Shown here: in pieces, positions 735 to 16,472 of the stretch | How the letters are laid out: each line of letters begins with the position of its first letter | How positions within the stretch are numbered: the first letter of the stretch is position 1 | Origin: a virus | DNA: 26,285 nt | Strand: one strand, 5' to 3' | Virus record (IMG/VR): IMGVR_UViG_3300017719_000162 | Coordinates: 1-26,285 of that record | Translations under genes and position numbers: made by a program | The notes under the pieces: model-generated | Database searches by the model: none | What the model saw: the letters and a program-made list of their open reading frames with translations, nothing else | Told to the model about the DNA's origin: nothing

Positions 735-742
735 TATTTAAA
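735..742 (-). promoter_or_regulatory. Possible weak late promoter (TTTAAATA)
   Basis: On the minus strand this octamer differs from the T4 late consensus TATAAATA by one base. It overlaps the stop codon of the 199-residue gene (740-738) and lies 10 bp before the ATG at 724. That leaves a leader of only a few bases, so it may be chance in AT-rich sequence. Confidence 0.25.
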
Positions 743-1337
743 CCTCACTGTATGAAGTTCTTATTCTAACTGTGTATATTACTTGAATTTTTCTATTGGC
801 ACTTTTTTGTACCGGATGAAAAACAACATGCGTTAACATGTTATCGTTGGCTGTGAACAGACCTAGTTCATCGAAAACATAATCTCCGTTCATATTTGTT
901 GAATCGTCTAGTGTGTCTTGTCCTACTGGTACATTATAATCTAATGTACAAGTAACTACTGCATCACTATATAATTCGCCGTTGGTGTGTGAAACTTCTG
1001 TACCATTGGTTGCAGATCCTGAAACTGTTTCATCTACTGATTGACTATATGTTTGATTATATAGCGTACCTGTAGTGATACTAGTATTCGTTGCTTTATA
1101 TGTAACATTACCTGTTCCATCAATTGTAGTACCGCCGTTTCCGAATCGCATCGTTGCAATATGATGTGATCCTGTAGATCCTACTTCGTTTGCTAATAAA
1201 TTAGCAATTGCAATACTCATATTCTCAAAGTTAACGGCGTTACGTTTACGGGCCAATACTTCTCCTGTGTCTGGGTCTACTATTGTAATGTGACCTTCAA
1301 CACCTATCATTGTTTTTTCTATTTTTGATACACTCAT
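738..1337 (-). CDS. Phage structural protein, 199 aa, probably tail/baseplate
   Basis: This is a beta-rich, Thr/Ser/Asn-rich protein with no signal peptide or membrane segment. The N-terminal ~40 residues (GHITIVDPDTGEVLARKRNAV, then NFENMSIAIANLLA) and a late FDELGLF motif recur in small structural proteins of large-tailed phages. They fit a fibre- or wedge-associated beta-sandwich. I do not recognise a T4 counterpart by name; it is much shorter than T4 gp8 (334 aa). It starts 24 bp downstream of the giant structural gene, with GGAAATAGAG as a plausible ribosome site. It has its own consensus late-promoter octamer, so it may be made in larger amounts than the very long upstream gene would allow. 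A structural role is likely from context; the exact position in the particle is unknown. Confidence 0.6.
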   Translation of the reverse strand: MSVSKIEKTMIGVEGHITIVDPDTGEVLARKRNAVNFENMSIAIANLLANEVGSTGSHHIATMRFGNGGTTIDGTGNVTYKATNTSITTGTLYNQTYSQSVDETVSGSATNGTEVSHTNGELYSDAVVTCTLDYNVPVGQDTLDDSTNMNGDYVFDELGLFTANDNMLTHVVFHPVQKSANRKIQVIYTVRIRTSYSEV

Positions 1338-1357: not shown

Positions 1358-1365
1358 TATTTATA
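1358..1365 (-). promoter_or_regulatory. T4-type late promoter, exact TATAAATA
   Basis: The minus strand reads TATAAATA exactly, the consensus -10 element recognised by gp55-containing RNA polymerase in T4. It spans the stop codon (1363-1361) of the giant gene. Initiation about 6 bases downstream (near 1352) would give a leader of roughly 15 bases holding GGAAATAGAG before the ATG at 1337. gp55 is encoded in the same window, which supports the reading. Confidence 0.65.
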
Positions 1366-4300
1366 TCGTTCCGGGACCTGCATTTCTAATGAAAGCATGT
1401 TCTGGTGAAGTACCTGCCGAAGCGAGGCTTACGCCACTATCGTTATAGGCTAATCTTAGATTGTCACCGTAATGTGCAAAGTTTTCTAAAACTGGCATTG
1501 TTGGTTCATATCTTACTGTAGTACCAATTGGTGTATTAGTTAATACTGGTGTTCCGTGTGTGCCTCGAGTACAGTAAAATAATGTTGTGCCAAGGATAGT
1601 ACTTGGTCCTTTAGCACCATATTCTATTCTTTCGTTGCCCATCCAAATTACACCGCTATCAGGAAAGCCAGTAGCATCATCTACCATAATAGCATCATGA
1701 TCACTAGCAATAACTGATGCTGCTGTTACAGTTGATGTAGCATCAACAACGGCTGTACTTTCTTGTATGCGATATTGTTCCCAAATATTCATACGGAACG
1801 AACGTGTATCGGTAGTTTCTGTAGATCCACTAGCATTAGTTTGTACTAGTATACTAATATTCTCATGTATGTCTGCAGGATATAAACCATCTCTCCAACC
1901 TTCTTGTACTGGCTGAATAAACACATTGCCATCGTATACATCACTAAATGTTGTAGTAGTAAATGCTGTTTCGATTGTATCACTAAATGCTACTGTATTA
2001 AACTCTCCGCCAGATAGACTAATGTCTCCTTGCCAGCCAATGCGATTATCACCTTGTACAACTGATGGTGCAGGATACAACAATGTAATTTCAGTATCTC
2101 TTTGTTGTTCAGTAACTTCTGCTGAACATGCATCTAATGTTGTTACTGCTTCTGTTGTTGTCCTAATTTTAGTATGGAACGGCTTAATTGTATTTACAAA
2201 CTCTTCAACTACTCCAACGTCATATTTTTGATAAGTTTTAGACATTAGTACTGGATGATTTACATTTAATTTAATATATGTTGTTTTAAATGCAAAATCG
2301 TCTGTTGTGTTGTCTGTAACTGCTTGATACAGCATCTTGAACCAAAGTTTATTGTAGTAGACTCTAACAGATCCAACAAACACCTTACTTCTTAAATCAT
2401 CGAACAAGGATGCAAGTACATTACTTGAATCATCATCAAAACCAGATATATCAAAGCCTGTACTATCAAAGCCTTTGCCGTACTTTGATTGATTCCAAAG
2501 TTCTTCGCTAATTCTTATAGTACCTTTTTCTTTCCAGACTCTCTTATATGTTCTAAGTCCGTCTTCTAATACTACTTTATATATTTCAGGACGATTAATT
2601 CCATCTGGGTGTGTAACTGTTGATACATAAACATGTGATCCAACTGCATCTAAGAAAGGTTCGCCAAGTACTGGTTGCATATCAAATGTTGTTTCGTAAA
2701 TACGATCTGGTACTGTTTCACTATCGTAGTTATTTGCACTCCAATCAGCAAACGTCCAGTACTTGCTTACATCGTAAGTAATAGAACCTTCTGTAAATGT
2801 TTTATAAAATACATCTCTCCAATTTGGAGCTTGTCCTACTAGACAGATTTTAGCTAATAATTCGTTTGTTGCTTCAACAAAGTTTTGTCTTGCAGTAACA
2901 ACATCTCTGAATAAACTTTGAGCAGGTCTTGTTAAATGACCATATCTATTATATTCATGCAAGCTCAAATCCGGTACAGGCTGACTCATTAAGACATCAA
3001 TATCCATTTGCGGAGTGTCTTCTGGGAATGAATAGTCTATTAATTCTTTCCAATATGTTCCAGTTGTATCTGTACTAGGACTATTTCCTAAGTTACTTGC
3101 TACTCTGCTCATATAATATTTTCCAGCCTCTAGTACAACTGCATTAACTGCGTAACTTGTAGATGCTGAATATGTTTCAAAGCTATAGCGTTTACTTGCT
3201 TTGTTATATGAAACTAAGCTGTCACGTATTTTAATGTGCATGTATTCTGGAATTATACTTTCAGGATCACCGTCACTTAGTAATGTCCATTCTGTTAATG
3301 GTAATGTGTTACTTGATTGTATTTGATTAACCTGCACAACACTTGTATCACTAACTAAATTATCAATGTTAGTTAAGAATAATTTATCAGTACCACTTGC
3401 TGCACACCAAGAAATATTAAACGCACTTGGGTTTTCCAGTATAGTACTTAGTTGACTTATATTATAACGTCTTTCACCATTGAAATTAGTTTTGTTTTTA
3501 ACCCAGAAGAAATACTGAGTGCTGACTTGCTTAGTACGTGGATTATAAAAAGTAGTCTCAACCCATTGGTAAACTTTTTGATCATTGATAGTTTTAAAAT
3601 AGGCTTCACCTGTAGCAGCATTACCATCAATGATAGTCTCTGCATCTACTACATCTTTCCATTGTTCTGGAAGAACAGGACTGCGAGTCCACTCGTATAT
3701 ATCAATACTAGAACCATCAAATAGTCTTCCCCAGTTTGCTTGTTGATAATCTACACTACCTTGTTCATAATCTAAATAAACAGCGGTTGTTAAATCCCAC
3801 CAACGCTTGCCAACATGTAAATCGCCCCAAGCTCTTTGATTTTCTACAAAACCATCTAAATTGTTATAGTTGTAACTTGCAATATCTGCTGTTAATTTAA
3901 AGTCTATTTCAGATGATATATAACCTGGTATAATACCTTTTGACGGATCATAAGTTTCTAATGTAGTGATAAGTGTTTTACGATCAGCATCATATATTTT
4001 TACATTTTCTATTAGATCATTTCTAGCTTGCGCTTGATTAATTCTAACTTTTGTCCAACCTTCTGTTCCTACATGTCCACTTCCGTTGCTGTATGTTCCT
4101 GTGTAACGATACACCGCAGGATTTCCGCTATTGTCATTATCAATATAAGCATAAATTGGTTGTTGCTCATCGTTTTGTCTAACACCTGCAAAGTTGTATT
4201 TAAATAAGCCGTTGATAGTAGTATTAAATGAACTTATTAACTCAGATTCTGTACTAAAACGAACAGGACGCAATGGATATATATTGCCAGCATCGCCTTC

Positions 4301-7300
4301 TTTATCAATGTAAGCATCAATATAGAACTTTTTAATATCAGCTGTATCAACTTTAGTTACTTCATGTATTCCGTCAATACTAGGAACAGTGCTACTTCCT
4401 GTAATGAAAACATAATCACCTACAGCTAAATTGTGTGCTTGTGTTACACCTGAACCAATAGCGACTGTAATCTCTGCATCATCTGCATCATTTATCCCTG
4501 CACATGAATAGTTAATATACATATCAAAGTCCATTGTTTGATAAACTTGATATCCTAGGTTTACATTACTTGCAGTACTATTATCAGCTACCCATATACT
4601 AAAGATATTTGGATCATTTGACATTTCACGGAATACTTGATTGCCGTCACTGCCTACAATAGCATTGAATACATTGCTTACTGTTGTTTGTGTTGCACTC
4701 AATGTTTCTGCACTAAGACCAACTATTGTGTTTGCTGTGCCTGCTCCAACTATTAGTTGTTCATTGAGACTTGTTATTTTTAGTCTGTTGTTACTGTTGC
4801 TTGCTGTAACTCCTGTAATACCAGCAGAGTTAATTTTTTCAATAATATCAATCAATGAACTTGCAGTACTGATTGTAGTAGTACTAGTTGTTGCAGGTAC
4901 AATGCCTGTTCCAATTCCTATTGCATTATTTGCAGTTCCGTTACCAATGTAAAGTACACTGTTACTACTTAGAATTCTTAATAGTGCATTTGCAGGAGCA
5001 ACTGACTGTGCAGTAATACCAGCAATTTGTGCTGCATTAATTTGAGATATAACTTGATTAATTGTAAGATTTGGAGTTGTTGTTTGTACATAACTAGTTG
5101 CATTTGTAGTTGTAGTCGACGATGCAAATCCTACATCAGCATTTGCAGTAGCCGCACTAATTCTTAAACTAAATGCTACTGTATCTGTACTTGTAGTTTT
5201 TGTAAGTCTAATTGCGCCGCCCGATACACTTGCTGTTACATCTGAAATATTTGCAGCATTGATTCTATTACGAATAGCTTGTACATCGTAAACTTTAAAT
5301 CCTGATCCACTTTGTGTTGTTACAATAGTACTAGTTGCAAACACTGTATTAGGATTTGCAATTTTCCAATTTTTAATTGCAGTAATGTATTGTCCATTTT
5401 CTAATGCAGAACGTGCACTATTTTTATCTGTGTTGCTTATAGTTTCTGTACCGTTTGCAACGTTAGTTGCATTATAAGTTTTGTTTTGTATATTATTAAT
5501 AATAGTTACATCTGATGTAAGCAAACTTAACAGCTCACTACTCCACGAAGGTGAAGTACCGTATTCAGTTACTAGCTTGTTTATGTTTAATCCTGCATCA
5601 CTTGAACTATAATAATCTTGTAACCATGTGACCCAAGTATTACTACTATTTGCACTGATATATGCTACTCTTAGTGCATCCCACGCATTAATTCTATTAA
5701 TAGATTCTGCTGTAATGTTTCCTGTATTAGTAGTCCAACTAGCATTAAAGCCGTTTATAAATGCTGCTTGTGCACTAATATTAGTTGAAGTAGATTGTGT
5801 TTCGTTAAACATAACACTAGTATTATCAATGATTAATTCTTCTGTAGCACTGCCTGTAATGCTTGCATTAGCAACACTGCCATCAACAACGATATCATTG
5901 TAACGAGTGGTATTAACAACATTGCTAAATGTTATAGTTGAACTATTAACACTACTTTGACCAAGTATTAGTGTTGTGCCGTGTGCAATTACATTACTAC
6001 TGCTAATATCTTGTGTGCCAGTGGCTTGTATCAAATCTAGTGTTACTGTTTCAGCTGATTTTTCTAGTGTTACTACATTTCCATCTAATATAATTGTTGC
6101 GCCAGAAGTTGGAATAGTTGGAAGTGTAATTGTGCCTGTTATATTAATAGGATCATTTGGTCTTGTCAACCCACTACTTCCGTCTGGGTCTAACATTTCC
6201 CAAGTTTTACCTTGATACAGTACTTTATCTTGAAATTTGTATGATGTTTTATTATCCCAAGTCGTAACATCTTTCCATGCACCATAGAAGTTATAATCAT
6301 TACGTGTTTCTTCAGGGAATTTTTTGAAGTCATCTTTGTTTATGACTCTGTAGTCCGTTTCTGTCAGCAAAGGTAAGCCAGCAGTTACATAATCGTTTTT
6401 ATAAAGTTCTTCATCTTTAATTGTATCATAATCAGTGAATCCTCTAGCAGTACGTGCTACAAAGTTATTACCTGCTGTGCCTGTTACTAGAAGATCACTA
6501 CTGTTATCAATATCAATAACAACATCTGACAATACATCAACTCTAGGAGTACTAGAAAATCTAATAGGCTGTGGGTTTGTTGTTAGTAAAGACTTAGTAA
6601 GTTCAAATTCAATTGTATCTCTACTTCGCACATCTCCGTAATCACTTGTTCTAATAGCCCACTCTTCGTAAATATCTGCGTTACTGATACCACCTAGGAT
6701 ACTGTTATTTCTCATAAACGCATTTACACTAAGTCTTGTACCTTGGTATTTTCTACTACCTTTAACAAATTCATATATTGTATCATCATCTAAATCTACA
6801 AGGTCTTGTGCCCAACTTGGCTTATTGTAGCCTGTATTAAACCTAGCAGAATCAACTAACTGACTATTGTTAATATTTGTTCTATTTTCATAATACTGAT
6901 CGGCTTCACGAGCAGTTGTATCAAAGTTATTATAAATTGTATTACCGTCAATAATGTAGCCTGGAGCATAAAGTTTGCCGTTCCAGTCTTTTGTTCTGCT
7001 ACCACGCCATATAATATTTTTGTGCATTTGACCTAATGCAGGACTGTAAACTGTGTCGCTAAAGTCTGTTACATTGTCAAAAACAACAGCATGTTCCAGT
7101 GCAACTTTATACAGCCTTAAACCATATATGTTTGTATTTGTATCTTTTTGTGTAAATGTTGTAATAGGAGAACTTGTGTCTAGTAACTCTCTTGTAATCA
7201 ATACACTGTTAGATAGGATCTGTTTTCCTTCAGAATCTATTATATTATATAGTCCGTCATATTTTTTATTAACATTATCAAAATACCCAATCGTACCATC

Positions 7301-10300
7301 AGAAATACTAATACTTGTTGAATTCGGTATACCAACAAACGTGTTAGTTTCTTTACTGTTTGCCCACATAACAAAATCACTACCAACATCACTCCAAGAA
7401 TCAGTCCATCCAAAACTGTTTAAGTATTCGCCATAACCTAATATAAATGAATACACATCTTGTAAATTAGTTAAAACTGTGTTGTAGTAAAGTTTTTCTA
7501 CAGAGTCTTTATCATATAATTTGTATTTGTCAACTGTTGTATTTTGTATTCCAACAATAGTGTTAGCACCAGTAGTAATAGGTTTGAACCAATTGAAATA
7601 TTGTGTAGTTTCATCATATCCTGTAATGCTATATCCAGTAGAAACTTTTGCAATTTTTATACCGCCGAAAAATAGTTCTGCACTTGGCTGATTTAAGTAA
7701 AGTGTACTTGTTCTATTTTCTTCAGGTATAATTACTTTACCTTTGCCTTGGCTACTTGTTAAAATAAAGTCTTGATTAGATGGATTAATAAATCCTTGTG
7801 TTTGTATCAAAGGATTAAATGTTAAGTTTTCAAATCTTGTGTTAAGATCACTTGGTATTGTTCCATTATTTTTTGCGTATTCTACAATACTATTACTAAG
7901 TCCATTGAAATATTTTATTCCATCTATTGCTAGTTCTACATGTAAACTTACATTACCATCGTCACTTGTAATAGTCGGAATACTCTGATAGTTGCCGCCA
8001 GGGTTATCAACACTCATTGCTACAACACTACCAGTTTCAACTACGGCAGAAACATTTGCGCCATTGCCAAAGTTTGCATAAACTGTAAATTCAGAACTGT
8101 TTGTAAATGTATTATCGCTTGATACAACATCAACACTTGTAACAATACTGTCATTAAAACGTGTGTAAGAAAATTCAAACTTAGTATTATTTCCTAATAA
8201 TTTTGTATCATTGAAATAATACTGCATAGTAGAAATGCTCGAATTACTTGTTTTACGTCTTTGCGTACTTCTGAAGAATGTATTTGTCATCCATAATGGA
8301 CGTAATCTCATTAACGCTTCTGCTAAAGAAGTTTTGTACTCTGAGGTAATTCTCCAAATATATTCAATAGGCCCAATGTCTCCAAACGCAAATGGTTTTG
8401 CTGCATCAACTGATGTTGGAGTCGCTACAAGATTACTTGCAGTAGGGTCATTGAGATCACCGGAAGTTGTTACAATGTCGTTTGTGTCCCATATATAATT
8501 ACTATATGCATATGTAATATCATAAAGTTTCTGTGCTTCGCTTGGGTCATTGTAGTGTCCATATTTTAGTGCTTCGACTAGCGCATTACGTTTTGTAATA
8601 TTAGTCCAACTATAATTTGTATCCCACCATGATGGTTTTTTATTGTATCCCAACATCTCCCATGGATGTGTGTGTGGTCTATCAGTATTAAACCAATATG
8701 TATATAGTCCTCTCCAGCCGCCGATACCGCCACTTACACTACTGTAGTTCCAAGTCCACGGATTATTTGGATCATAGTAATCATCATCTTGAAGATTTAA
8801 AATGCCGTAGTTTGTTTTCCATTTATTAAATCCACTTTGCAATGCATTGGTTAAGTCTGTCCAACTATATGGAGTATCTCGATGAGCATTAGGCATAACA
8901 GTTTTATAATCTTGTACTGTGTTTAATTCTGTACTTAAATTATTAAAAATCCTGTGCTCTAAATCCCATATAGCCGCATCACTTATACTATAACCAGAGC
9001 TTGCTCTGTCATACAGTTCAGTGCCTTGTCTATAATAAATGCTACCGTCATGGCATAAAATGCCTCTAGATGTAGTAACACCATTGGATTCAATATCTAA
9101 ATTACTAACTAATTCAGGAGTATATGTTTTTACGAATCCTAGTTTTGCTGAACTCGGAGGAACAAAACTAACACTGTTAAATGGGAACCAGCGAACAAGT
9201 AAATCAACTCCGCCATCAACTGATGAATAAGTTGGATTGATTTCACTAATATTAAGTGTTATCTTATTTTTTGTAAGTGTATACTGTTTTCCTTCTTGAA
9301 TAGGGAACCATGTACCGCCAGTGACATAGTAATCTCTAACAAAGACTTGAATATGATTTTTTGTATCATTGTATGTGTTAATAGTTTTAGGCAAGTCAAA
9401 TACTTTACTATCGCTAGTAGTAAATCTATAACGAACGACTTCTGCATCTGTATACATTGCCATATCACTATTAGCAAATGCATTGGTATTATTTTTACCA
9501 ATGTTAATATCTTTAAGAGCTTGATCTACAATTTCATATGTACTTTTTTCTATTGCCATTGTATTATGTAACTGTCTTACTTTTTGTAAAAACTGTGTTC
9601 TAAAACGCTTATATTGTTTTGATACATACTTAATACTACTAAATGGATTGGTGTCTGTGTCCATTAGTGTTTGACTAATAAGTTCAGTACTAAATGGTTG
9701 TTGTCTAATTGTGCCGCCATATTCATGTACATGCGGAATCTCTTTATAATTATTTTGTCCAAAGAAGTCGCCACTAAAGTTTGGCATACCTGTCATTTGT
9801 TGACGCATATGTTCTTGTAAATCGCCAAAACTTGCAGTCGCTAACCAACTGTTTTGCGAATTATAAACATGCGTAGGTGCAGCCAGTTCTTTGCCATCTG
9901 CATCTATTACTTTGTCATCTGTACTATAGTAGATATCAATTACATTGTCAACTGCCGCAGTTGTACTAAGTGTAATGAATTTTCCACTTAGTGAATAAGT
10001 TGTTACTGGAACACCGTTATTATAAATTTTCATATCTTCGTTTAACGAATCATCTATAGGCATTAAAAGACCTTGCACTTTAGAACTTCCTACTTGTTTG
10101 TACAGTAGCGGATCTGTTTGTGCTTGTGCAACAGTTACCGTATAAGTCGGACCAGTAAGAACAACACTAACGTTAGAATTTGCTGTGCCGTCTAAATTAA
10201 CAAACTCTAATGATTCACTGAAATACTTGGTAAATTGATAACTTACGCCTTTTCTAATATATAATACAGGATTTACTTTTCCAATTGGTGTTAGTCTACG

Positions 10301-12580
10301 AACTTGGTTGTCTGTAGTGCTGAGTACATTAAACCCGCTACCTTTTTTAAATATCTTAAATCTAGACTCTTTTAGTTTAATGTCACTTGTTCCCAAGTTA
10401 AATGTCAATGACTTTGAAGGATCTGTAATAACATGTCTAATATGTCGTTGAACAGATTGTCCGTTACGTACAAAGTTCCAGCCATTATGATATTTTAGAG
10501 TCTCTATATTTTTATAGTAGTAGTACCCATTGATTTCATTAACTGTATTCGCACCAGTTTGAGCTTGATAGTTTGCATTATCGCTAATAACATTGTACTG
10601 ATAACGTGTTGCGCCTAATTCAAGGTCAAACATATATCCTGGATTATTTCCATAATCTGTGCGTTTAGGTGCAAAGCCAAGTGCTGTATCTATTGCGCCC
10701 GAACCCTTAGCATAATCAAATATTTTATCACCACGGAATGTACTGTTTGGATATACAGTATTACTATCTAGCTCAGTTAGGTTAATATCATATAATGTAA
10801 ACAGTGCGCCTTCACTTCTGTGATCTTTTTGTTGTCCATATCGCCATTTGTTTCCATTCCAATACCATTCACTTCCGCTATAGATATTATTAGGATATGT
10901 TTCACCAAATATTTCATTGTAGCCAATTACAGTTAAGATTTTGTCTCCTGCTACATAATTACTAGTATTAAGTACTTCTGTTAATGTAATGCTTGCGCCA
11001 ACACCATCTACACGGAATATTTTATTAGTGTAACTAGCATCAGACTCTAAGAACAAAATTGTGTCGCCTTTTGCAAGAGGTTTACGAACAACTTCTGTCC
11101 AGTATTCTCTGTTTTCAAAATAGCTTGGGTTTTTAGATCCTGCGTGTGTTTGTATACAATTCCAGTACGAAGGTTGACCACCAAGTGTAAACTTTACTAA
11201 TGCACCTTTGTTGTATCCGCTTTGTGATTGCCAATTATCAGTAATAGTATTTTGTGCAAGATCCCAACTTACACTGCCTACGATCTCTGTTGCAGGATTG
11301 CTAACATTATCAAACACATGAGTAACGTTAGCAATATGTCTTGTACCAAAATCATATTTTTGCATGTTAGCACGATATTCTATAATAGGTCGTATAGCTC
11401 TATATTCTTCTTTGATATAATCAACAGCCGCTAATCCAAGGAAGTCGCAAATTGTATGTATTACTTGCTCATGCATCCATAGGTTACTACGTGCCCATGC
11501 GCTCTGATCTTGACTCCATCTTTGTTCTACAACATATTCACGTGCAATGATTACAAGTTCACGTTGATCAAAAGGTCTATAGTCAAAACTTTCGCCTTCT
11601 GGATCAAACCTACTAGGTTGTCTGCCGCTGTATGTTGTTTGGTTTAACCAATTACGTGTTTCATATTCGTCGACACCTAGGCTTGCTGTAAATTGTTTAA
11701 TAAATTTAATACCTGTAGTATCGCCAACTCCATCAACAATAAACACATCATCTACTGCATAGTTAGTTCCCGATGTGTAAAAACTATGTATTTCTACTTC
11801 CTGGTTTAATGCAGGTGCTGTTGCTAAAATAACAATACCAGCAACATTGTCGTGATTGTAATCAGCAGGATCTACTATTAAGTTGTTTACATATACTTTA
11901 ACAGTAGTAGCACCTACTGCATTTGTGTTAAATCCTTTTACACCAGGTGTGGTTTGATGCACTTTGGTTATTTCATATGGACTAAATCTTATTCTCATAC
12001 CATTTCTAAGTTGTAGTGTTTTACTATTAGAAAGTTCTGGTGTAGTATAAGATAAATTTCCAGGAATAGTATCAATTGTAATTGGGTTTGTAGGAGTTGA
12101 AATAACATCAACTACTGGCATTTGATCAACCATAAAGAAGTAGTTATGATAGTTAATAAACATATCATAGTTAATCGGTATATCTAATGTATAACCTTCT
12201 TCATTGAGTTGGTGTGTTTTACCATCTAAATCTGTTTCGTTGTACTGTAGTGCATTAAGTAAATCTGCATAACTTAGTACATTTGAAATGTTATTATCAG
12301 ATGTACGATTAACAGCACCTGGGTTAAACTCAATACTATCATCATGTGGATCAGTTACTGAACCTGACAGCTTATATTCACCAATATGTGTGTTAATAGA
12401 TTGTAAGCTACCTGTTGACATTAGTTGTTCAAGTGTACTATCTAAAAACTTTTTGTTTACTGATGTTTGAAATATATTAGGAAGTAAATCTGTTACATTT
12501 CGTGTGCCTACATATTCTGAACTTTCGCCAGGTTTAGTTATTAGTGGTGCCACTATTGGTTTTGCACTATAGTCTTTCAT
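1361..12580 (-). CDS. Giant modular baseplate/tail structural protein, 3739 aa
   Basis: One uninterrupted frame covers more than 11 kb. The N-terminus (LLPNIFQTSVNKKFLDST near residues 32-49, then a segment ending in NYDMFINYHNYFF) matches the opening I know from very large virion proteins of marine T4-like phages. The rest is a mosaic. Chitin-binding-like W/Y-rich segments lie near residues 450-500, 2100-2140 and 3135-3185. A Gly-rich NPGGNYQSIPTIT module lies near 1500-1545. Tandem repeats of the type INAAxIxGITA...GTANxxIG lie near 2430-2630. A DDATGFPDSGVIWMGNE module lies near the C-terminus. No enzyme motif or membrane segment was seen. Its start shares one base with the gp6 stop (TAATG), with GGAG 10 bases upstream. 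It occupies the place where T4 has genes 7, 8, 9 and 10, so it may replace several wedge or fibre-attachment proteins; that is inference. Confidence 0.75.
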   Translation of the reverse strand: MKDYSAKPIVAPLITKPGESSEYVGTRNVTDLLPNIFQTSVNKKFLDSTLEQLMSTGSLQSINTHIGEYKLSGSVTDPHDDSIEFNPGAVNRTSDNNISNVLSYADLLNALQYNETDLDGKTHQLNEEGYTLDIPINYDMFINYHNYFFMVDQMPVVDVISTPTNPITIDTIPGNLSYTTPELSNSKTLQLRNGMRIRFSPYEITKVHQTTPGVKGFNTNAVGATTVKVYVNNLIVDPADYNHDNVAGIVILATAPALNQEVEIHSFYTSGTNYAVDDVFIVDGVGDTTGIKFIKQFTASLGVDEYETRNWLNQTTYSGRQPSRFDPEGESFDYRPFDQRELVIIAREYVVEQRWSQDQSAWARSNLWMHEQVIHTICDFLGLAAVDYIKEEYRAIRPIIEYRANMQKYDFGTRHIANVTHVFDNVSNPATEIVGSVSWDLAQNTITDNWQSQSGYNKGALVKFTLGGQPSYWNCIQTHAGSKNPSYFENREYWTEVVRKPLAKGDTILFLESDASYTNKIFRVDGVGASITLTEVLNTSNYVAGDKILTVIGYNEIFGETYPNNIYSGSEWYWNGNKWRYGQQKDHRSEGALFTLYDINLTELDSNTVYPNSTFRGDKIFDYAKGSGAIDTALGFAPKRTDYGNNPGYMFDLELGATRYQYNVISDNANYQAQTGANTVNEINGYYYYKNIETLKYHNGWNFVRNGQSVQRHIRHVITDPSKSLTFNLGTSDIKLKESRFKIFKKGSGFNVLSTTDNQVRRLTPIGKVNPVLYIRKGVSYQFTKYFSESLEFVNLDGTANSNVSVVLTGPTYTVTVAQAQTDPLLYKQVGSSKVQGLLMPIDDSLNEDMKIYNNGVPVTTYSLSGKFITLSTTAAVDNVIDIYYSTDDKVIDADGKELAAPTHVYNSQNSWLATASFGDLQEHMRQQMTGMPNFSGDFFGQNNYKEIPHVHEYGGTIRQQPFSTELISQTLMDTDTNPFSSIKYVSKQYKRFRTQFLQKVRQLHNTMAIEKSTYEIVDQALKDINIGKNNTNAFANSDMAMYTDAEVVRYRFTTSDSKVFDLPKTINTYNDTKNHIQVFVRDYYVTGGTWFPIQEGKQYTLTKNKITLNISEINPTYSSVDGGVDLLVRWFPFNSVSFVPPSSAKLGFVKTYTPELVSNLDIESNGVTTSRGILCHDGSIYYRQGTELYDRASSGYSISDAAIWDLEHRIFNNLSTELNTVQDYKTVMPNAHRDTPYSWTDLTNALQSGFNKWKTNYGILNLQDDDYYDPNNPWTWNYSSVSGGIGGWRGLYTYWFNTDRPHTHPWEMLGYNKKPSWWDTNYSWTNITKRNALVEALKYGHYNDPSEAQKLYDITYAYSNYIWDTNDIVTTSGDLNDPTASNLVATPTSVDAAKPFAFGDIGPIEYIWRITSEYKTSLAEALMRLRPLWMTNTFFRSTQRRKTSNSSISTMQYYFNDTKLLGNNTKFEFSYTRFNDSIVTSVDVVSSDNTFTNSSEFTVYANFGNGANVSAVVETGSVVAMSVDNPGGNYQSIPTITSDDGNVSLHVELAIDGIKYFNGLSNSIVEYAKNNGTIPSDLNTRFENLTFNPLIQTQGFINPSNQDFILTSSQGKGKVIIPEENRTSTLYLNQPSAELFFGGIKIAKVSTGYSITGYDETTQYFNWFKPITTGANTIVGIQNTTVDKYKLYDKDSVEKLYYNTVLTNLQDVYSFILGYGEYLNSFGWTDSWSDVGSDFVMWANSKETNTFVGIPNSTSISISDGTIGYFDNVNKKYDGLYNIIDSEGKQILSNSVLITRELLDTSSPITTFTQKDTNTNIYGLRLYKVALEHAVVFDNVTDFSDTVYSPALGQMHKNIIWRGSRTKDWNGKLYAPGYIIDGNTIYNNFDTTAREADQYYENRTNINNSQLVDSARFNTGYNKPSWAQDLVDLDDDTIYEFVKGSRKYQGTRLSVNAFMRNNSILGGISNADIYEEWAIRTSDYGDVRSRDTIEFELTKSLLTTNPQPIRFSSTPRVDVLSDVVIDIDNSSDLLVTGTAGNNFVARTARGFTDYDTIKDEELYKNDYVTAGLPLLTETDYRVINKDDFKKFPEETRNDYNFYGAWKDVTTWDNKTSYKFQDKVLYQGKTWEMLDPDGSSGLTRPNDPINITGTITLPTIPTSGATIILDGNVVTLEKSAETVTLDLIQATGTQDISSSNVIAHGTTLILGQSSVNSSTITFSNVVNTTRYNDIVVDGSVANASITGSATEELIIDNTSVMFNETQSTSTNISAQAAFINGFNASWTTNTGNITAESINRINAWDALRVAYISANSSNTWVTWLQDYYSSSDAGLNINKLVTEYGTSPSWSSELLSLLTSDVTIINNIQNKTYNATNVANGTETISNTDKNSARSALENGQYITAIKNWKIANPNTVFATSTIVTTQSGSGFKVYDVQAIRNRINAANISDVTASVSGGAIRLTKTTSTDTVAFSLRISAATANADVGFASSTTTTNATSYVQTTTPNLTINQVISQINAAQIAGITAQSVAPANALLRILSSNSVLYIGNGTANNAIGIGTGIVPATTSTTTISTASSLIDIIEKINSAGITGVTASNSNNRLKITSLNEQLIVGAGTANTIVGLSAETLSATQTTVSNVFNAIVGSDGNQVFREMSNDPNIFSIWVADNSTASNVNLGYQVYQTMDFDMYINYSCAGINDADDAEITVAIGSGVTQAHNLAVGDYVFITGSSTVPSIDGIHEVTKVDTADIKKFYIDAYIDKEGDAGNIYPLRPVRFSTESELISSFNTTINGLFKYNFAGVRQNDEQQPIYAYIDNDNSGNPAVYRYTGTYSNGSGHVGTEGWTKVRINQAQARNDLIENVKIYDADRKTLITTLETYDPSKGIIPGYISSEIDFKLTADIASYNYNNLDGFVENQRAWGDLHVGKRWWDLTTAVYLDYEQGSVDYQQANWGRLFDGSSIDIYEWTRSPVLPEQWKDVVDAETIIDGNAATGEAYFKTINDQKVYQWVETTFYNPRTKQVSTQYFFWVKNKTNFNGERRYNISQLSTILENPSAFNISWCAASGTDKLFLTNIDNLVSDTSVVQVNQIQSSNTLPLTEWTLLSDGDPESIIPEYMHIKIRDSLVSYNKASKRYSFETYSASTSYAVNAVVLEAGKYYMSRVASNLGNSPSTDTTGTYWKELIDYSFPEDTPQMDIDVLMSQPVPDLSLHEYNRYGHLTRPAQSLFRDVVTARQNFVEATNELLAKICLVGQAPNWRDVFYKTFTEGSITYDVSKYWTFADWSANNYDSETVPDRIYETTFDMQPVLGEPFLDAVGSHVYVSTVTHPDGINRPEIYKVVLEDGLRTYKRVWKEKGTIRISEELWNQSKYGKGFDSTGFDISGFDDDSSNVLASLFDDLRSKVFVGSVRVYYNKLWFKMLYQAVTDNTTDDFAFKTTYIKLNVNHPVLMSKTYQKYDVGVVEEFVNTIKPFHTKIRTTTEAVTTLDACSAEVTEQQRDTEITLLYPAPSVVQGDNRIGWQGDISLSGGEFNTVAFSDTIETAFTTTTFSDVYDGNVFIQPVQEGWRDGLYPADIHENISILVQTNASGSTETTDTRSFRMNIWEQYRIQESTAVVDATSTVTAASVIASDHDAIMVDDATGFPDSGVIWMGNERIEYGAKGPSTILGTTLFYCTRGTHGTPVLTNTPIGTTVRYEPTMPVLENFAHYGDNLRLAYNDSGVSLASAGTSPEHAFIRNAGPGTI
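4680..5300 (-). repeat. Tandem protein repeats inside the giant gene (hook-IN-like)
   Basis: Within about residues 2430-2630 of the giant protein, two good copies and one looser copy share a pattern. It runs: hydrophobic helix, INAA/INSA, GITA/GVTA, a beta pair (LRILSSNSVLYIGNGTAN; LKITSLNEQLIVGAGTAN), then IG/VG and a Thr-rich linker. The core resembles the flagellin hook IN motif family, in which a short helix precedes a GVTAS strand. The coding strand is Ser/Thr/Ala/Asn-rich here. The boundaries are approximate. Confidence 0.55.
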
Positions 12581-15500
12581 TATATGTTTGCTCCGGTATT
12601 TGCTGCTATACTTGTTGGATTAAGCAGAACATTGTCATTGACAACAATATTACTTGTACTAATTACAGGCATAAACATTTCATCACTGTTAGCAGGTATC
12701 TCAAATAATCCAATTTCACTTGTAGTTTCACTAATAGGATTTAGTGTTACTTGCGAGACTTGACCTATCATATTATTATGTATAAAGGCTGCAAGTTCTG
12801 TAAAGTAAAACGTTTCTCCAAAATCCCAATTATCAATATTGAAGTAACTTTGAATTAACTTAATAGTCTGCTGTTTAATTTCTGTATCACTCAGTGATGC
12901 ATTTGTAGTTTTTGTAATAACAAAGTTTGCTTGTAGCTCACTATTAGCTAAATCTCCGAACAGTAATTTATACTTAACTGGTCTATAAATTACTTGATCA
13001 CTTATGGACTTCTTAGCTTCAAGAGAAGTAAACATATTTGTTAGCATATTAACTGTGGGTGGATTTGGTTTCGTGTAACTTCGTCCGTCAAATGTTGCCC
13101 ATCTTCTAAAGTCTTGCTCATAACTTTTTAACAATACAAATGTATCAATGATGTTTGTTTGCGCAGGATCTATTAGCTGATTTAAGTCTGCTACTCTAGT
13201 AAATTTTGAATCAAGTACTGCTCTGCCGTTTACTACTGATGATCCGTTCTCATCATATACTGCATAATCATATCCGTGTTCATTAACAGTTCCCAATTTA
13301 ATTGTCTCATTTTGTATAATTTCGTCAAATGATGCTGGGTTGTCTGGGAAGCCGTCATTATTAGGATCTGCTAGTGTTAATCTAATCTTATGTGGATCCG
13401 TATATCCATCTGTGTATGTGAAATATCCAAACGCATTAAACTTATAATTTGTGTTTAGTGGTGTACTGTCTATACTACTTTTTTTGTTAATACCAAGTAT
13501 GGTAATATTATCTAGACTTGGTTTTAATGTTTCACTACTAAATGTTTCAGTAAAGTTTAAGTTATTGAATCTTATCTGCTTTTCACTACCAAATACATAA
13601 CGAGTCTTTCTAGTTAAGATCTCCCAATGTGTTCCTGTATAGTTTAATCTTATAATCCAACTATTGTCTAATCCAGTGCTACTAGTGTCGCCTTCTTTTA
13701 AACGACTCCAGTTAGCTACACTATTACTTGTAATATTGTTATTTGATAAATCACTACCAGTAACAATTTTCCATGTTTGTGAACTTGCATCATAACGTAA
13801 TCCAAAACTATTATTGTTGGTTAGTTCACTTATTACATCTGTCTTAATATTTGTTTCTAATGCAGGTTCCCAACTTGGAACAATGCGTTTAATACGAGCA
13901 CTACTTGGAATAGGCTTACTTAATACAACTGCACCTCTGCCTGTAATATCTAAACCCGACGGTGTTCCGACACTGTTGTCTTCACCAAGTCCAGTTTTGT
14001 TTAAACCTGTAACTCTAACCCATTCTGTATCTGCACTAGCAACAAATACTTTAGCACTAGCACCAGTGCCTCCGCCTCCGGAAAGTGTAATATTAGTTGC
14101 TTGGTTATAGTTTAAACCTTGTGTGTTAATGGTAATACTTACAACTTCTCCTGCTGCAATATTAGCTGTAGCTGTTGCACCTGATCCAGCACCTGTAATA
14201 GTTGCAGTTGGTGCACTAGTATATCCACTACCGCTAGTTACAACTTCGATAGTTTTAATATATCCGTTTGTCCAAGGCGTTGTAATGAATTCTATAAGTC
14301 CGTTTGTTTCTAATTTTCTTAGTGGGAAAGGTGCTGTTTCACCTAATCTTTGTACAACACTGTTGTATGTAAGATAACCTGTACAACTATTATTACTTTT
14401 GCTTACTTGATTCCAGCGATATACATTCAAGTCACTTCCATCAGCATTGTTATAATTTATACTAGCAGTTGTATCACTATAATGTAAGTTACCATTGAAT
14501 GAACTTTCAACACCATACCAATGTCTGTCATAGTAAAAATTCTTAACTTCAGGATTATTTAGAATAGGATTAATGTAACGCTGGAATATCTGTTCACTGT
14601 TTAAACTAGTTGGCAACGACACAAGTTGTCTTGCTGTAATTTCATCTTTGTAAAGATATCCGTCGGATAAAAATTGTGTTGCATCACTGTAAGTTGCAGT
14701 TGGATCATGAAAGTCTCTAAAACGACTGTGTCCACTGTGCACACGGTTGATACTTTTAATTTTGCGAATGTTTTCGCTTACTGTTACAGGAAATAAACTA
14801 TAATCATCACTAGTTACCATACGATCTTGTGTACCAAAGAAACGACTTGCATTTGCTTTAATACTGTCAATACTTTCTCTTGCACTTGCATTGTTAACAG
14901 TTTCTTTAAGACTTGCTGTAAACTGTGCACGATAACTATTGCCATCATTAGCAATATAATTAATTGAAAAACGTGATGATCCAAAGTTATCTGGAATCAA
15001 ACTGTAACTATTATTAAGTCCTGTGCGATACCATACACGAATAATTCCACGTGGAATATTTCCGAAGTTGCCATCGCTGAACACAACACTAACCTGATCG
15101 TCTTCACGACTTGATACAGTGTATATGTCACGTACATTATTATTAATACTGTTAAATGCTGAATTTAGTCCAAATAGTTTATCTACTCTAGTCCAATTTT
15201 TTTGTACTTGACCAACTTCGTCAATTGACTGTACCCACATATTTCCATTGGTTACATTTGATTCGTTAATATCTAGTACTAAGTTTGCAATACCCTTGTC
15301 GATATCAAAGTCTTTGTACTGCAACGATCCTTGTTTAAAACCTAAAAAGAATCCTGTGTTTGGACTACTAAATCCTGCATTATCATCTTTGTATAGTATA
15401 TCAAATACACCATAAGGATTAGGAGTTTTTTCTTCAATTCGATTAAGTGTTTGATTATAGTAAACACTATGCGCCGTAAACGCCGCACGTTGTCCACTAA

Positions 15501-16110
15501 GTATTCCATTAAATGGTAGTGTAACATCTGTGCTTGTACTATTAGTTCTGTATACTTCATTCTTTACATTATTACTTGAAAAACGTGCAAACGGTGAACC
15601 GAATTGACTACTACTTTGAAAGATGTTATTCATAATTGTTAAAAAGTTTTGGTAAGTGTTAGGATCTGTTACATCTTCAAACTGTACTTCAACATTTGCA
15701 AGACTTGTGCCGTCTACATCATAAATGTTTTGATTTGTAACAACGCTGTCTATCTTTAAATATCCACTGGCAACGATATTCCTAGTAGGTGTATAGTTTA
15801 AAAATTCAGCAATGCGTAAGGCGCTTTCTCTGCGTTCTGCTGTACTTAAAAAGTTCTCTCTTGTATTAAGATCATTTCGAAATGCTAAGTTATGACCTAA
15901 GAAAGCCATAAGTTCCATTAAACTTACAAATTCACTTGAACTAATCCAGTCATTAAAGTTTTCCGGATAGTTAGCGTTAATGTATTCTACCATACTGTTA
16001 CGTATAGTATCAAAATCATATGCCTTAAAATCTGCTTGTGCAAAACTTTCGTATACTACGCTGAAATCTTCTGCTGCAAACAAGCTACTCTGTCTTGCGC
16101 CTTGTGCCAT
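12580..16110 (-). CDS. 6: Baseplate wedge subunit gp6, enlarged (1176 aa)
   Basis: gp6 forms the inner ring of the baseplate that holds the wedges together and drives the change on contraction. The gp6/baseplate-J-like character is visible in residues 30-115 (NSMVEYINANYPENFNDWIS, then ENFLSTAERRESALRIAEFL, NYTPTRNIVASGYL) and in 430-470 (DDYSLFPVTVSENIRKIKSI). T4 gp6 is 660 aa, so about 500 residues are extra. Part of the excess is a Gly-rich beta module at ~617-690 (TSGSGYTSAPTATITGAG, then TLSGGGGTGASAKV). The C-terminal third (VIYRPVKYKLLFGDLANSEL, then YFNIDNWDFGETFYFTELAA) again looks like the conserved gp6 end. The gene starts in a TAATG overlap with gp25, with AGGTGAAG as ribosome site, and ends in a TAATG overlap with the giant gene. 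gp25 then gp6 is the normal T4-like order. Confidence 0.9.
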   Translation of the reverse strand: MAQGARQSSLFAAEDFSVVYESFAQADFKAYDFDTIRNSMVEYINANYPENFNDWISSSEFVSLMELMAFLGHNLAFRNDLNTRENFLSTAERRESALRIAEFLNYTPTRNIVASGYLKIDSVVTNQNIYDVDGTSLANVEVQFEDVTDPNTYQNFLTIMNNIFQSSSQFGSPFARFSSNNVKNEVYRTNSTSTDVTLPFNGILSGQRAAFTAHSVYYNQTLNRIEEKTPNPYGVFDILYKDDNAGFSSPNTGFFLGFKQGSLQYKDFDIDKGIANLVLDINESNVTNGNMWVQSIDEVGQVQKNWTRVDKLFGLNSAFNSINNNVRDIYTVSSREDDQVSVVFSDGNFGNIPRGIIRVWYRTGLNNSYSLIPDNFGSSRFSINYIANDGNSYRAQFTASLKETVNNASARESIDSIKANASRFFGTQDRMVTSDDYSLFPVTVSENIRKIKSINRVHSGHSRFRDFHDPTATYSDATQFLSDGYLYKDEITARQLVSLPTSLNSEQIFQRYINPILNNPEVKNFYYDRHWYGVESSFNGNLHYSDTTASINYNNADGSDLNVYRWNQVSKSNNSCTGYLTYNSVVQRLGETAPFPLRKLETNGLIEFITTPWTNGYIKTIEVVTSGSGYTSAPTATITGAGSGATATANIAAGEVVSITINTQGLNYNQATNITLSGGGGTGASAKVFVASADTEWVRVTGLNKTGLGEDNSVGTPSGLDITGRGAVVLSKPIPSSARIKRIVPSWEPALETNIKTDVISELTNNNSFGLRYDASSQTWKIVTGSDLSNNNITSNSVANWSRLKEGDTSSTGLDNSWIIRLNYTGTHWEILTRKTRYVFGSEKQIRFNNLNFTETFSSETLKPSLDNITILGINKKSSIDSTPLNTNYKFNAFGYFTYTDGYTDPHKIRLTLADPNNDGFPDNPASFDEIIQNETIKLGTVNEHGYDYAVYDENGSSVVNGRAVLDSKFTRVADLNQLIDPAQTNIIDTFVLLKSYEQDFRRWATFDGRSYTKPNPPTVNMLTNMFTSLEAKKSISDQVIYRPVKYKLLFGDLANSELQANFVITKTTNASLSDTEIKQQTIKLIQSYFNIDNWDFGETFYFTELAAFIHNNMIGQVSQVTLNPISETTSEIGLFEIPANSDEMFMPVISTSNIVVNDNVLLNPTSIAANTGANI

Positions 16111-16472
16111 TATTCTTCACCTATAAAATTTAGAAACAATTCTTCAGCTGTTCCTGTGTCATCATATAAAAGTTGTACTCTAACGTTTAGTGTATGATCA
16201 TTTGGTTTTTCTAAACGCAAGTCTTGAAATATCCATCTTGGATCACTTTCGATAATGCGTATTACATCTTTTTTAACTATACCTTCAGTAATTGGGTCTA
16301 AAGGATCAAATAGTATATCCCATATACTACATCCGAATTCTGGGTTCATAACTCTTTCACCTTTACGTGTATAAAAATGATTCAAAAGGTCACGAACAGC
16401 CAAGTCCTTATCAACAAGAACTCTGTTTCCGTTAGTAGAATTTACAGTACTATATCCAATGTATGTTGCCAT
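16110..16472 (-). CDS. 25: Baseplate wedge subunit gp25
   Basis: This is a 120-residue protein of the gp25/GpW family. It has the family core FYTRKGERVMNPEFGCSIWD at residues 33-52, then ILFDPLDP and a C-terminal beta strand (TLNVRVQLLYDD). In T4, gp25 joins gp6 and gp53 in the wedge core and resembles the sheath end that starts sheath assembly. T4 gp25 is 132 aa, so the length fits. The stop overlaps the gp6 start by one base, so the two are probably made in step. There is no obvious Shine-Dalgarno sequence before the ATG at 16472. A late-promoter-like GATAAATA lies immediately upstream, so initiation may be unusual or depend on readthrough from the 300-residue gene 35 bp away. Confidence 0.93.
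   Translation of the reverse strand: MATYIGYSTVNSTNGNRVLVDKDLAVRDLLNHFYTRKGERVMNPEFGCSIWDILFDPLDPITEGIVKKDVIRIIESDPRWIFQDLRLEKPNDHTLNVRVQLLYDDTGTAEELFLNFIGEE

Follow-up and report, generated by a model that had tools for sequence, protein, structure and literature searches.

A giant virion protein encoded directly after gp6: a probable gp7-like wedge scaffold in a jumbo-phage-type baseplate locus

The locus described here raises the question of which baseplate role is held by a single protein of 3739 residues, whose gene directly follows that of the wedge protein gp6. A preliminary description of the window (the whole stretch of 26,285 nucleotides that was analysed, from IMG/VR record IMGVR_UViG_3300017719_000162) had reported an open reading frame at 1361–12580, covering more than 40% of the sequence, and had read it as a mosaic structural protein that fills the place of several T4 wedge genes. 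The frame is real: both ends and the length of 3739 residues were reproduced, on the minus strand, and it makes up 42.7% of the 26,285-base window. The translation, hereafter the giant, has a computed mass of 417 kDa and a pI of 4.8. The giant gene and the neighbors on which the argument turns are:

1361–12580, minus strand: giant virion/baseplate protein, 3739 aa, ATG start, PHROG 10938
12580–16110, minus strand: gp6-like baseplate wedge protein, 1176 aa (PHROG 10646, E = 2.4e-262; PHROG 219, E = 1.6e-21)
16110–16472, minus strand: gp25-like wedge protein, 120 aa (PF04965, 34.4 bits, cut-off 27.2; PHROG 261/43)
738–1337, minus strand: conserved partner gene, 199 aa (PHROG 11259, function not annotated)

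In transcription order, a cytidylyltransferase-like gene and a virion structural protein (PHROG 12050) are followed by a gp53-like protein, a large structural protein (PHROG 11190), a gp5-like hub, a gene without family match, gp25 and gp6, and then by the giant, whose start codon shares one nucleotide with the gp6 stop codon (TAATG, the last base of the stop being the first base of the start). The gene stands directly after gp6 and among baseplate genes, in agreement with the position of the T4 wedge genes first ascribed to it. Beyond it lie the 199-residue gene and a gene truncated by the window end, and the opposite strand of the window carries a gp55-like late sigma factor and a gp47/SbcD-like gene. 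The window gp6 has 1176 residues, compared with 660 for T4 gp6; its extra middle part includes a Gly-rich module (residues 614–691) with matches to other phage tail and structural families. Elsewhere in the window, the last ~120 residues of an 892-residue structural protein (18721–21399) resemble what we take to be an M15-type peptidase motif, and Pfam gave no match for such a peptidase in this protein. A nearly identical contig (L006, 3640–11757; 99.9% across the C-terminal 1000 residues of the giant) extends beyond the window end, and its further genes, judged by eye, include cytidylyltransferase-like and radical-SAM-like ones.

The giant is no one-off: it adds to a family that is already known but has no assigned function. 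The only PHROG that the giant matches is 10938, annotated as 'virion structural protein' (E = 1e-224, 750 bits, in four stretches), the members of which come from Rak2-like and other jumbo phages and from many viral contigs. With the first 1933 residues of the giant as query, tblastn matched 60 phage records (GenBank and RefSeq copies counted separately), all at less than 60% identity; the window gp6 as query matched 61. The 40 tblastn matches listed all belong to phages with hosts in Enterobacterales, Pseudomonas, Xanthomonas and Agrobacterium, and 38 of these 40 records have lengths of 284–490 kb. The giant lies directly after gp6 in GAP32, PA5oct, Atu_ph07, RaK2, Vibrio 2.275.O, Phosso, 121Q and CBB, and in the same eight phages a gp25-annotated or gp25-sized gene precedes gp6. 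In 121Q, gp25 and gp6 are separated by a gene that the record describes as group I intron-associated (L289, 12232–12996).

The same arrangement recurs in viral contigs, in which at least 173 open reading frames contain a family block and at least 106 of these are complete. A set of 101 was defined, among the matches listed, as complete frames of more than 2600 residues with both the central and the C-terminal blocks; the five of the 106 left out are L259, two pieces of L177, one piece of L273, and L287, which has 5538 residues and no C-terminal block match. Among the matches listed, gp6 lies upstream of the giant in 100 of the 101 (which are loci rather than independent lineages, some contigs being near duplicates), the gap is 70 nucleotides or less in 99, and in 65 there is an overlap, like that seen in the window, between the giant start codon and gp6 or the gp6 stop; lengths range from 2608 to 5152 residues with a median of 4008. 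L259 (2193 residues) was considered as a minimal giant and rejected, as its frame is broken and an upstream frame holds the missing part. Two further contigs, L177 (3135–13780) and L273 (6339–14173), have the giant split into two frames, which in L177 lie 20 nucleotides apart after a stop, with the break between the central and C-terminal cores, and in L273 overlap by one nucleotide; either a real gene split or a sequencing error may account for them. The exception to gp6 lying upstream is Salicola phage SCTP-2, which has the same gp6 type and a 3807-residue giant at 127,770–139,193, about 92 kb from gp6. The 453-residue gene that follows gp6 in SCTP-2 was considered as a short counterpart and rejected. 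The giant of that genome lies elsewhere, together with the 199-residue partner and next to a further very large gene, which encodes 3096 residues (L292, 7771–19194 and 19272–28562).

An alignment of 151 complete and partial sequences, thinned to 119, resolves seven core segments of about 2,070 residues in all (1–180, 360–680, 840–1040, 1140–1440, 1560–2040, 2820–3110 and 3180–3480), each of them at least half filled in 110–118 of the 118 other members, with a mean occupancy of 0.77–0.97; despite lying in segment 360–680, residues 421–480 are filled in 48% of cells only. The core includes Trp and Gly positions that are invariant in a 15-sequence alignment. The word mosaic thus suits the inserted modules, which lie mostly between the segments, but not the ~2,070 residues that form a conserved core. 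Similarly, the N-terminus, first described as a conserved marine-myovirus one, is conserved within the family (residues 1–260 are at least half covered in 115 of 119 rows) but has no profile-level match to the giants of cyanophages. The inserted modules and the C-terminal barrel are:

6149–6262, minus strand: CBM5/12-like module, residues 2107–2144 (PF02839, CBM_5_12, 24.4 bits, cut-off 26.2)
3029–3184, minus strand: CBM5/12-like module, residues 3133–3184 (fold match; PF02839 only 11.1 bits)
4676–5293, minus strand: three tandem repeats of 62–66 residues each, residues 2430–2635 (pairwise alignment against shuffles)
9179–9451, minus strand: small beta domain like phage fibre/adaptor domains, residues 1044–1134 (model comparison)
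1505–1738, minus strand: C-terminal beta barrel, residues 3615–3692 (model comparison and hhalign)

Of the carbohydrate-binding-like segments proposed at the outset, two stand as CBM5/12-like modules, both below the Pfam cut-off, and a third stretch, at about residues 455–495, is similar by eye only and has no Pfam match, such that all three candidates miss the 26.2-bit cut-off of PF02839. Residues 3133–3184 of the AlphaFold model superimpose on a chitinase-type CBM (Z = 6.6, rmsd 1.2 Å over 45 residues), with several chitinase CBMs among the fold matches listed; the Foldseek list for the C-terminal model consists in large part of chitin-binding domains, at E values of 0.3 and above. As the CBM-like motif pattern occurs in 18 of the 119 members and at one place in the window, no wider claim is made. 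Tandem repeats and Gly-rich beta modules had also been described, and both were recovered. The three repeat copies give pair scores of 60, 70 and 102 against shuffle means of 30–32, with none of 500 shuffles reaching any pair; they are visible only by targeted alignment, a blastp self-comparison of the giant at E = 0.01 having returned no repeats, and at the DNA level the gene contains a single 12-nucleotide array only. The Gly-rich beta modules, near profile columns 1467–1568, match modules of cyanophage giants (hhalign 81–86%). Residues 1044–1134 resemble a phiKZ baseplate periphery chain (9xqd_G, Z = 7.4) and TSP4 (7rfv, Z = 7.3), at a Z level that is common for this tool, and score 22.3 bits with DUF7424 (cut-off 27). 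The barrel at 3615–3692 resembles 9in6_M (phage VP1, Z = 9.8) and 8rk3_b (JBD30 baseplate, Z = 9.1, rmsd 6.2), with F1-ATPase barrels at Z = 6.1–6.6 too, and its region matches a module of a cyanophage giant (hhalign 90–92%).

Structure prediction, which the preliminary description had suggested as a check, gave models for residues 845–2040 and 2790–3739, in which the conserved parts are:

6461–10048, minus strand: conserved central core, residues 845–2040 (AlphaFold2 pLDDT 84.4, pTM 0.79)
2081–4213, minus strand: conserved C-terminal core, residues 2790–3500 (modelled within 2790–3739)

The central model (74 sequences) is of mixed helix and strand, and the C-terminal model (58 sequences) is weaker, with a pLDDT of 77.5 and a pTM of 0.49. 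Foldseek searches of the PDB gave no match at E ≤ 0.001 for either; for the central model there was none better than E = 0.1, and the best for the C-terminal model had E = 0.14. In BFVD, 24 matches reached E ≤ 0.001, most of them to unnamed or uncharacterized phage proteins, and the best include a piece of an Atu_ph07 structural protein (2.2e-46). No relevant PDB entry was found by sequence, whether the query was the whole giant, one of three block alignments or the central alignment of 74 rows. The folds of gp7, gp8, gp9 and gp10 are not among the matches listed for the two models; as the VIA-align lists are filled by single small domains (model residues 200–291 for the central model, 346–389 and 825–904 for the C-terminal one), the absence of gp7 from them says little.

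Homologues of the giant are present in the virions of other phages, in support of the structural label given at the outset. Available sections of two virion studies report, by mass spectrometry, 21 unique peptides and 7.72% coverage for CBB_236, which by gene identity is the giant of CBB, and 13 unique peptides and 12.47% coverage for CBB_237, its gp6 (PMC5259590); and, for phAPEC6, 17 peptides and 7.6% coverage for gp245 (381.88 kDa), together with 21 peptides and 24.2% coverage for the adjoining baseplate wedge protein gp244 (131.18 kDa) (PMC7247149). The numbers of unique peptides do not give copy numbers. As the gene order and masses match those of 121Q (computed as 381.87 kDa for its giant and 131.21 kDa for its gp6), gp245 is taken as the giant and gp244 as gp6; the six Escherichia records listed do not include phAPEC6, and the assignment is by order and mass. 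The PA5oct record carries an 'ESI-MS/MS' note on its giant. In the available parts of PMC6102473, PMC7247149, PMC5259590, PMC10966104, PMC3004832 and PMC6892783, no position of these proteins within the particle was found reported and no assignment to the role of gp7 was found, although one may be in print elsewhere, and the available main text of the CBB paper contains no word starting gp7, gp8 or gp10 (PMC5259590).

The 199-residue gene accompanies the giant. Among the matches listed, a homologue lies within 2.5 kb after the giant in 88 of the 97 loci with at least 400 nucleotides of downstream sequence, and one is present in all nine jumbo genomes; T4, S-RSM4 and Cr30 gave no match. The protein has 39–77% identity to 51 aligned relatives, and a PDB sequence search with the family found nothing. 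In SCTP-2 the partner stays beside the giant though gp6 is distant, and in 121Q and CBB it is encoded on the opposite strand, at a distance of ~7 kb from the giant. Virion data again come from the available sections of the same studies, with two peptides for CBB_230 (PMC5259590) and two for phAPEC6 gp251c (21.95 kDa; PMC7247149), which equals 121Q_576 in mass (21,954 Da); PA5oct gp357 is a virion protein according to the note in its record. The partner is probably another virion component of the assembly to which the giant belongs.

Homology to T4 gp7, gp8, gp9 and gp10 was assessed at the profile level by comparing nine blocks of the 119-member alignment, using hhalign, with these four proteins, with gp8 of Cr30 and S-RSM4, with Cr30 gp7 and with the cyanophage giants. 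None of the nine blocks matched T4 gp7, Cr30 gp7 or the cyanophage gp7 core, and the trimmed termini of the giant gave no match to the gp7 references (PHROG 964, PHROG 17744 and T4 core 630–910; best 1.0%); the cyanophage N-terminus, as a positive control, reached 98.1% with Cr30 gp7 and 89.9% with the T4 gp7 core. Only block 3480–3739 exceeded 8%, through small modules that it shares with cyanophage giants (91–92%). Next best was block 840–1150, with 7.7% over 44 columns to a cyanophage giant and 3.5% to gp10, the latter being the highest value for any block with T4 gp8, gp9 or gp10, none of which gave a profile match.

Profile searches of related whole genomes covered sets that differ in size, with seven jumbo genomes for T4-type gp7 and for gp10, nine for gp9 and T4-type gp8, and six for Cr30-type gp7. 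The T4-type gp7 profile matched none of seven jumbo genomes and one of 14 control genomes (Bacteroides ihuae); because it misses S-RSM4 too, though the S-RSM4 giant contains a gp7 core, its miss in the jumbos means little. The absence of gp7 from the jumbos consequently rests more on the Cr30-type profile, which finds S-RSM4 (1.7e-15) and T4 (3.5e-6) and matched none of six jumbo genomes and none of ten viral contigs with the giant. The T4-type gp8 profile matched none of nine jumbo genomes. PHROG 438 (gp8), searched in seven jumbo genomes and ten viral contigs, matched Atu_ph07, Phosso and nine of the ten contigs, with its middle stretch only (~166–301) and in giant- or gp6-sized frames, except in contig G008 (836- and 385-residue frames); no gp8 was seen after the giant among the genes of the window or of contig L006. 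For gp9, none of nine jumbo genomes matched bar one marginal case (9.5e-4, in a 1603-residue frame of a Vibrio phage). For gp10, matches among seven jumbo genomes were confined to a Vibrio phage (marginal, 8.1e-4) and PA5oct, where the C-terminal domain, which is common to tail and tail-fibre families, matched a 582-residue frame (2.2e-17) and the middle part a 2243-residue frame (2e-9); one of the ten viral contigs, G008, gave a match at 6.9e-5. The T4-type gp6 profile matched all 12 genomes searched, including nine of nine jumbos, so T4-type profiles can detect a jumbo baseplate protein in at least one case. Separate homologues of gp7, gp8 and gp10, named in the preliminary description as the evidence that would speak against replacement, were therefore not found together in these genomes; for proteins as divergent as these, non-detection is weak evidence of absence. 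Of the preliminary reading, the baseplate position directly after gp6, the occurrence of homologues in virions and the binding-like modules within the chain are supported; kinship with gp7, gp8, gp9 or gp10 appears neither in the sequence nor among the fold matches listed.

The reading we favor, with a probability of about 0.6, is that the giant is a part of the contractile-tail baseplate, a wedge scaffold that sits next to gp6 in the place of gp7 and works like it. Its gene-7 position, its travel with gp6 and its virion homologues make a wedge scaffold doing the work of gp7 the simplest reading. It is most likely a gp7-like scaffold by position and partners, and not a demonstrable gp7 homologue. 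SCTP-2 bears on this in both directions: the gp6 type and the giant co-occur there even at a distance of ~92 kb, which speaks for this reading, and the giant is unlinked from gp6, which speaks against it. One long chain per wedge would dock on the gp6 pair through the conserved core, presumably at the wedge periphery, and the small beta, sugar-binding-like and repeat modules would be carried outward between core segments, lining the rim, where they might hold or supplement receptor-binding parts. A broader proposal, that one such chain per wedge and the 199-residue partner have non-homologously replaced T4 gp7, gp8 and gp10 across the jumbo supergroup, we consider doubtful, and the replacement of several wedge genes by the giant is a hypothesis. 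The only hints that the giant takes over the functions of gp8 and gp10 as well are the negative searches for these two proteins and a similarity in mass (417 kDa, against 394 kDa for T4 gp7 plus two gp8 and three gp10, from masses and copy numbers in the available sections of PMC3004832). S-RSM4, where gp8 is retained next to the giant, makes this less likely, as do the gp10-like stretches in PA5oct. If the broader proposal were true, the rearrangement that triggers contraction would take place within one chain, not among six.

A less probable view, to which we give some weight, is that the giant is a true gp7 orthologue beyond profile detection, swollen by insertions, with other, unrecognized proteins in the roles of gp8 and gp10. 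The cyanophage giants stand in the same gene position and do contain the gp7 core, S-RSM4 with gp8 as its next gene, and the failure of the T4-type gp7 profile even on S-RSM4 shows how such an orthologue could be missed; there is also a collinear N-terminal alignment, weak and insignificant at 0.3%, of jumbo residues 9–107 to cyanophage residues 14–112. Against it, the Cr30-type profile that recovers S-RSM4 and T4 finds none of the six jumbos or ten giant-bearing contigs, the 119-member profiles match small shared modules only, and a search of the PDB with the model of the central core found nothing at E ≤ 0.001. That the giant is mainly an adhesin or tail-fibre-like protein mounted on the baseplate, not a wedge building block, appears improbable: the predicted CBM5/12-like, fibre-adaptor-like and repeat modules and the wide spread in length (2608–5152 residues among the matches listed) would suit such a protein, but not a core of ~2,070 residues kept in 110–118 of 118 other members, with invariant Trp and Gly, or the tight linkage to gp6. 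The PHROG 10938 category label, 'head and packaging', is what speaks for a head or other non-tail protein; with baseplate genes upstream in the window and no head placement found in the available literature, this reading is very improbable indeed. A wedge scaffold in the place of gp7 would matter beyond this locus, since the giants are the largest gene products in the jumbo tail regions inspected and are labelled only 'virion structural protein' or 'hypothetical protein'; the gp7 position and the conserved partner provide a concrete hypothesis for a jumbo outer baseplate without recognizable gp7, gp8 and gp9.

The known systems differ in how closely they resemble this arrangement. As described in the available sections of PMC3004832, the T4 wedge assembles in the strict order gp11, gp10, gp7, gp8, gp6, gp53, gp25, with gp7 and gp8 as the platform for the gp6 pair, and gp7 is a 119-kDa monomer present in six copies. 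Like T4 gp7 (1032 residues) and Cr30-type gp7 (767 residues), the giant comes directly after gp6 and has the same presumed role, but it is 3.6 times as long as the former and 4.9 times as long as the latter and has no profile match to either; to T4 gp8 and gp10 no likeness was shown, with no profile match to any block. The giants of cyanophages S-RSM4 and S-SSM6a (PHROG 4406) are nearer, with ~3000–3500 residues and a place after gp6, and they share small Gly-rich and C-terminal beta modules with the giant of the window. Both Cr30 and S-RSM4 encode the gp7 core at this position, found in the cyanophage giants at profile columns 6–393 and 1784–1844, whereas the window giant has no detectable one; as S-RSM4 retains gp8 as the next gene, the presence of a giant after gp6 does not imply that anything besides gp7 has been replaced. 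Closest are the PHROG 10938 proteins of jumbo phages, which give the four-stretch profile match, have gp6 directly upstream and measure 3323–4555 residues in those inspected, and whose genomes encode the 199-residue partner either adjoining the giant or elsewhere; identity to the window giant is 22–29% over the aligned parts, and the insertions differ in length and content.
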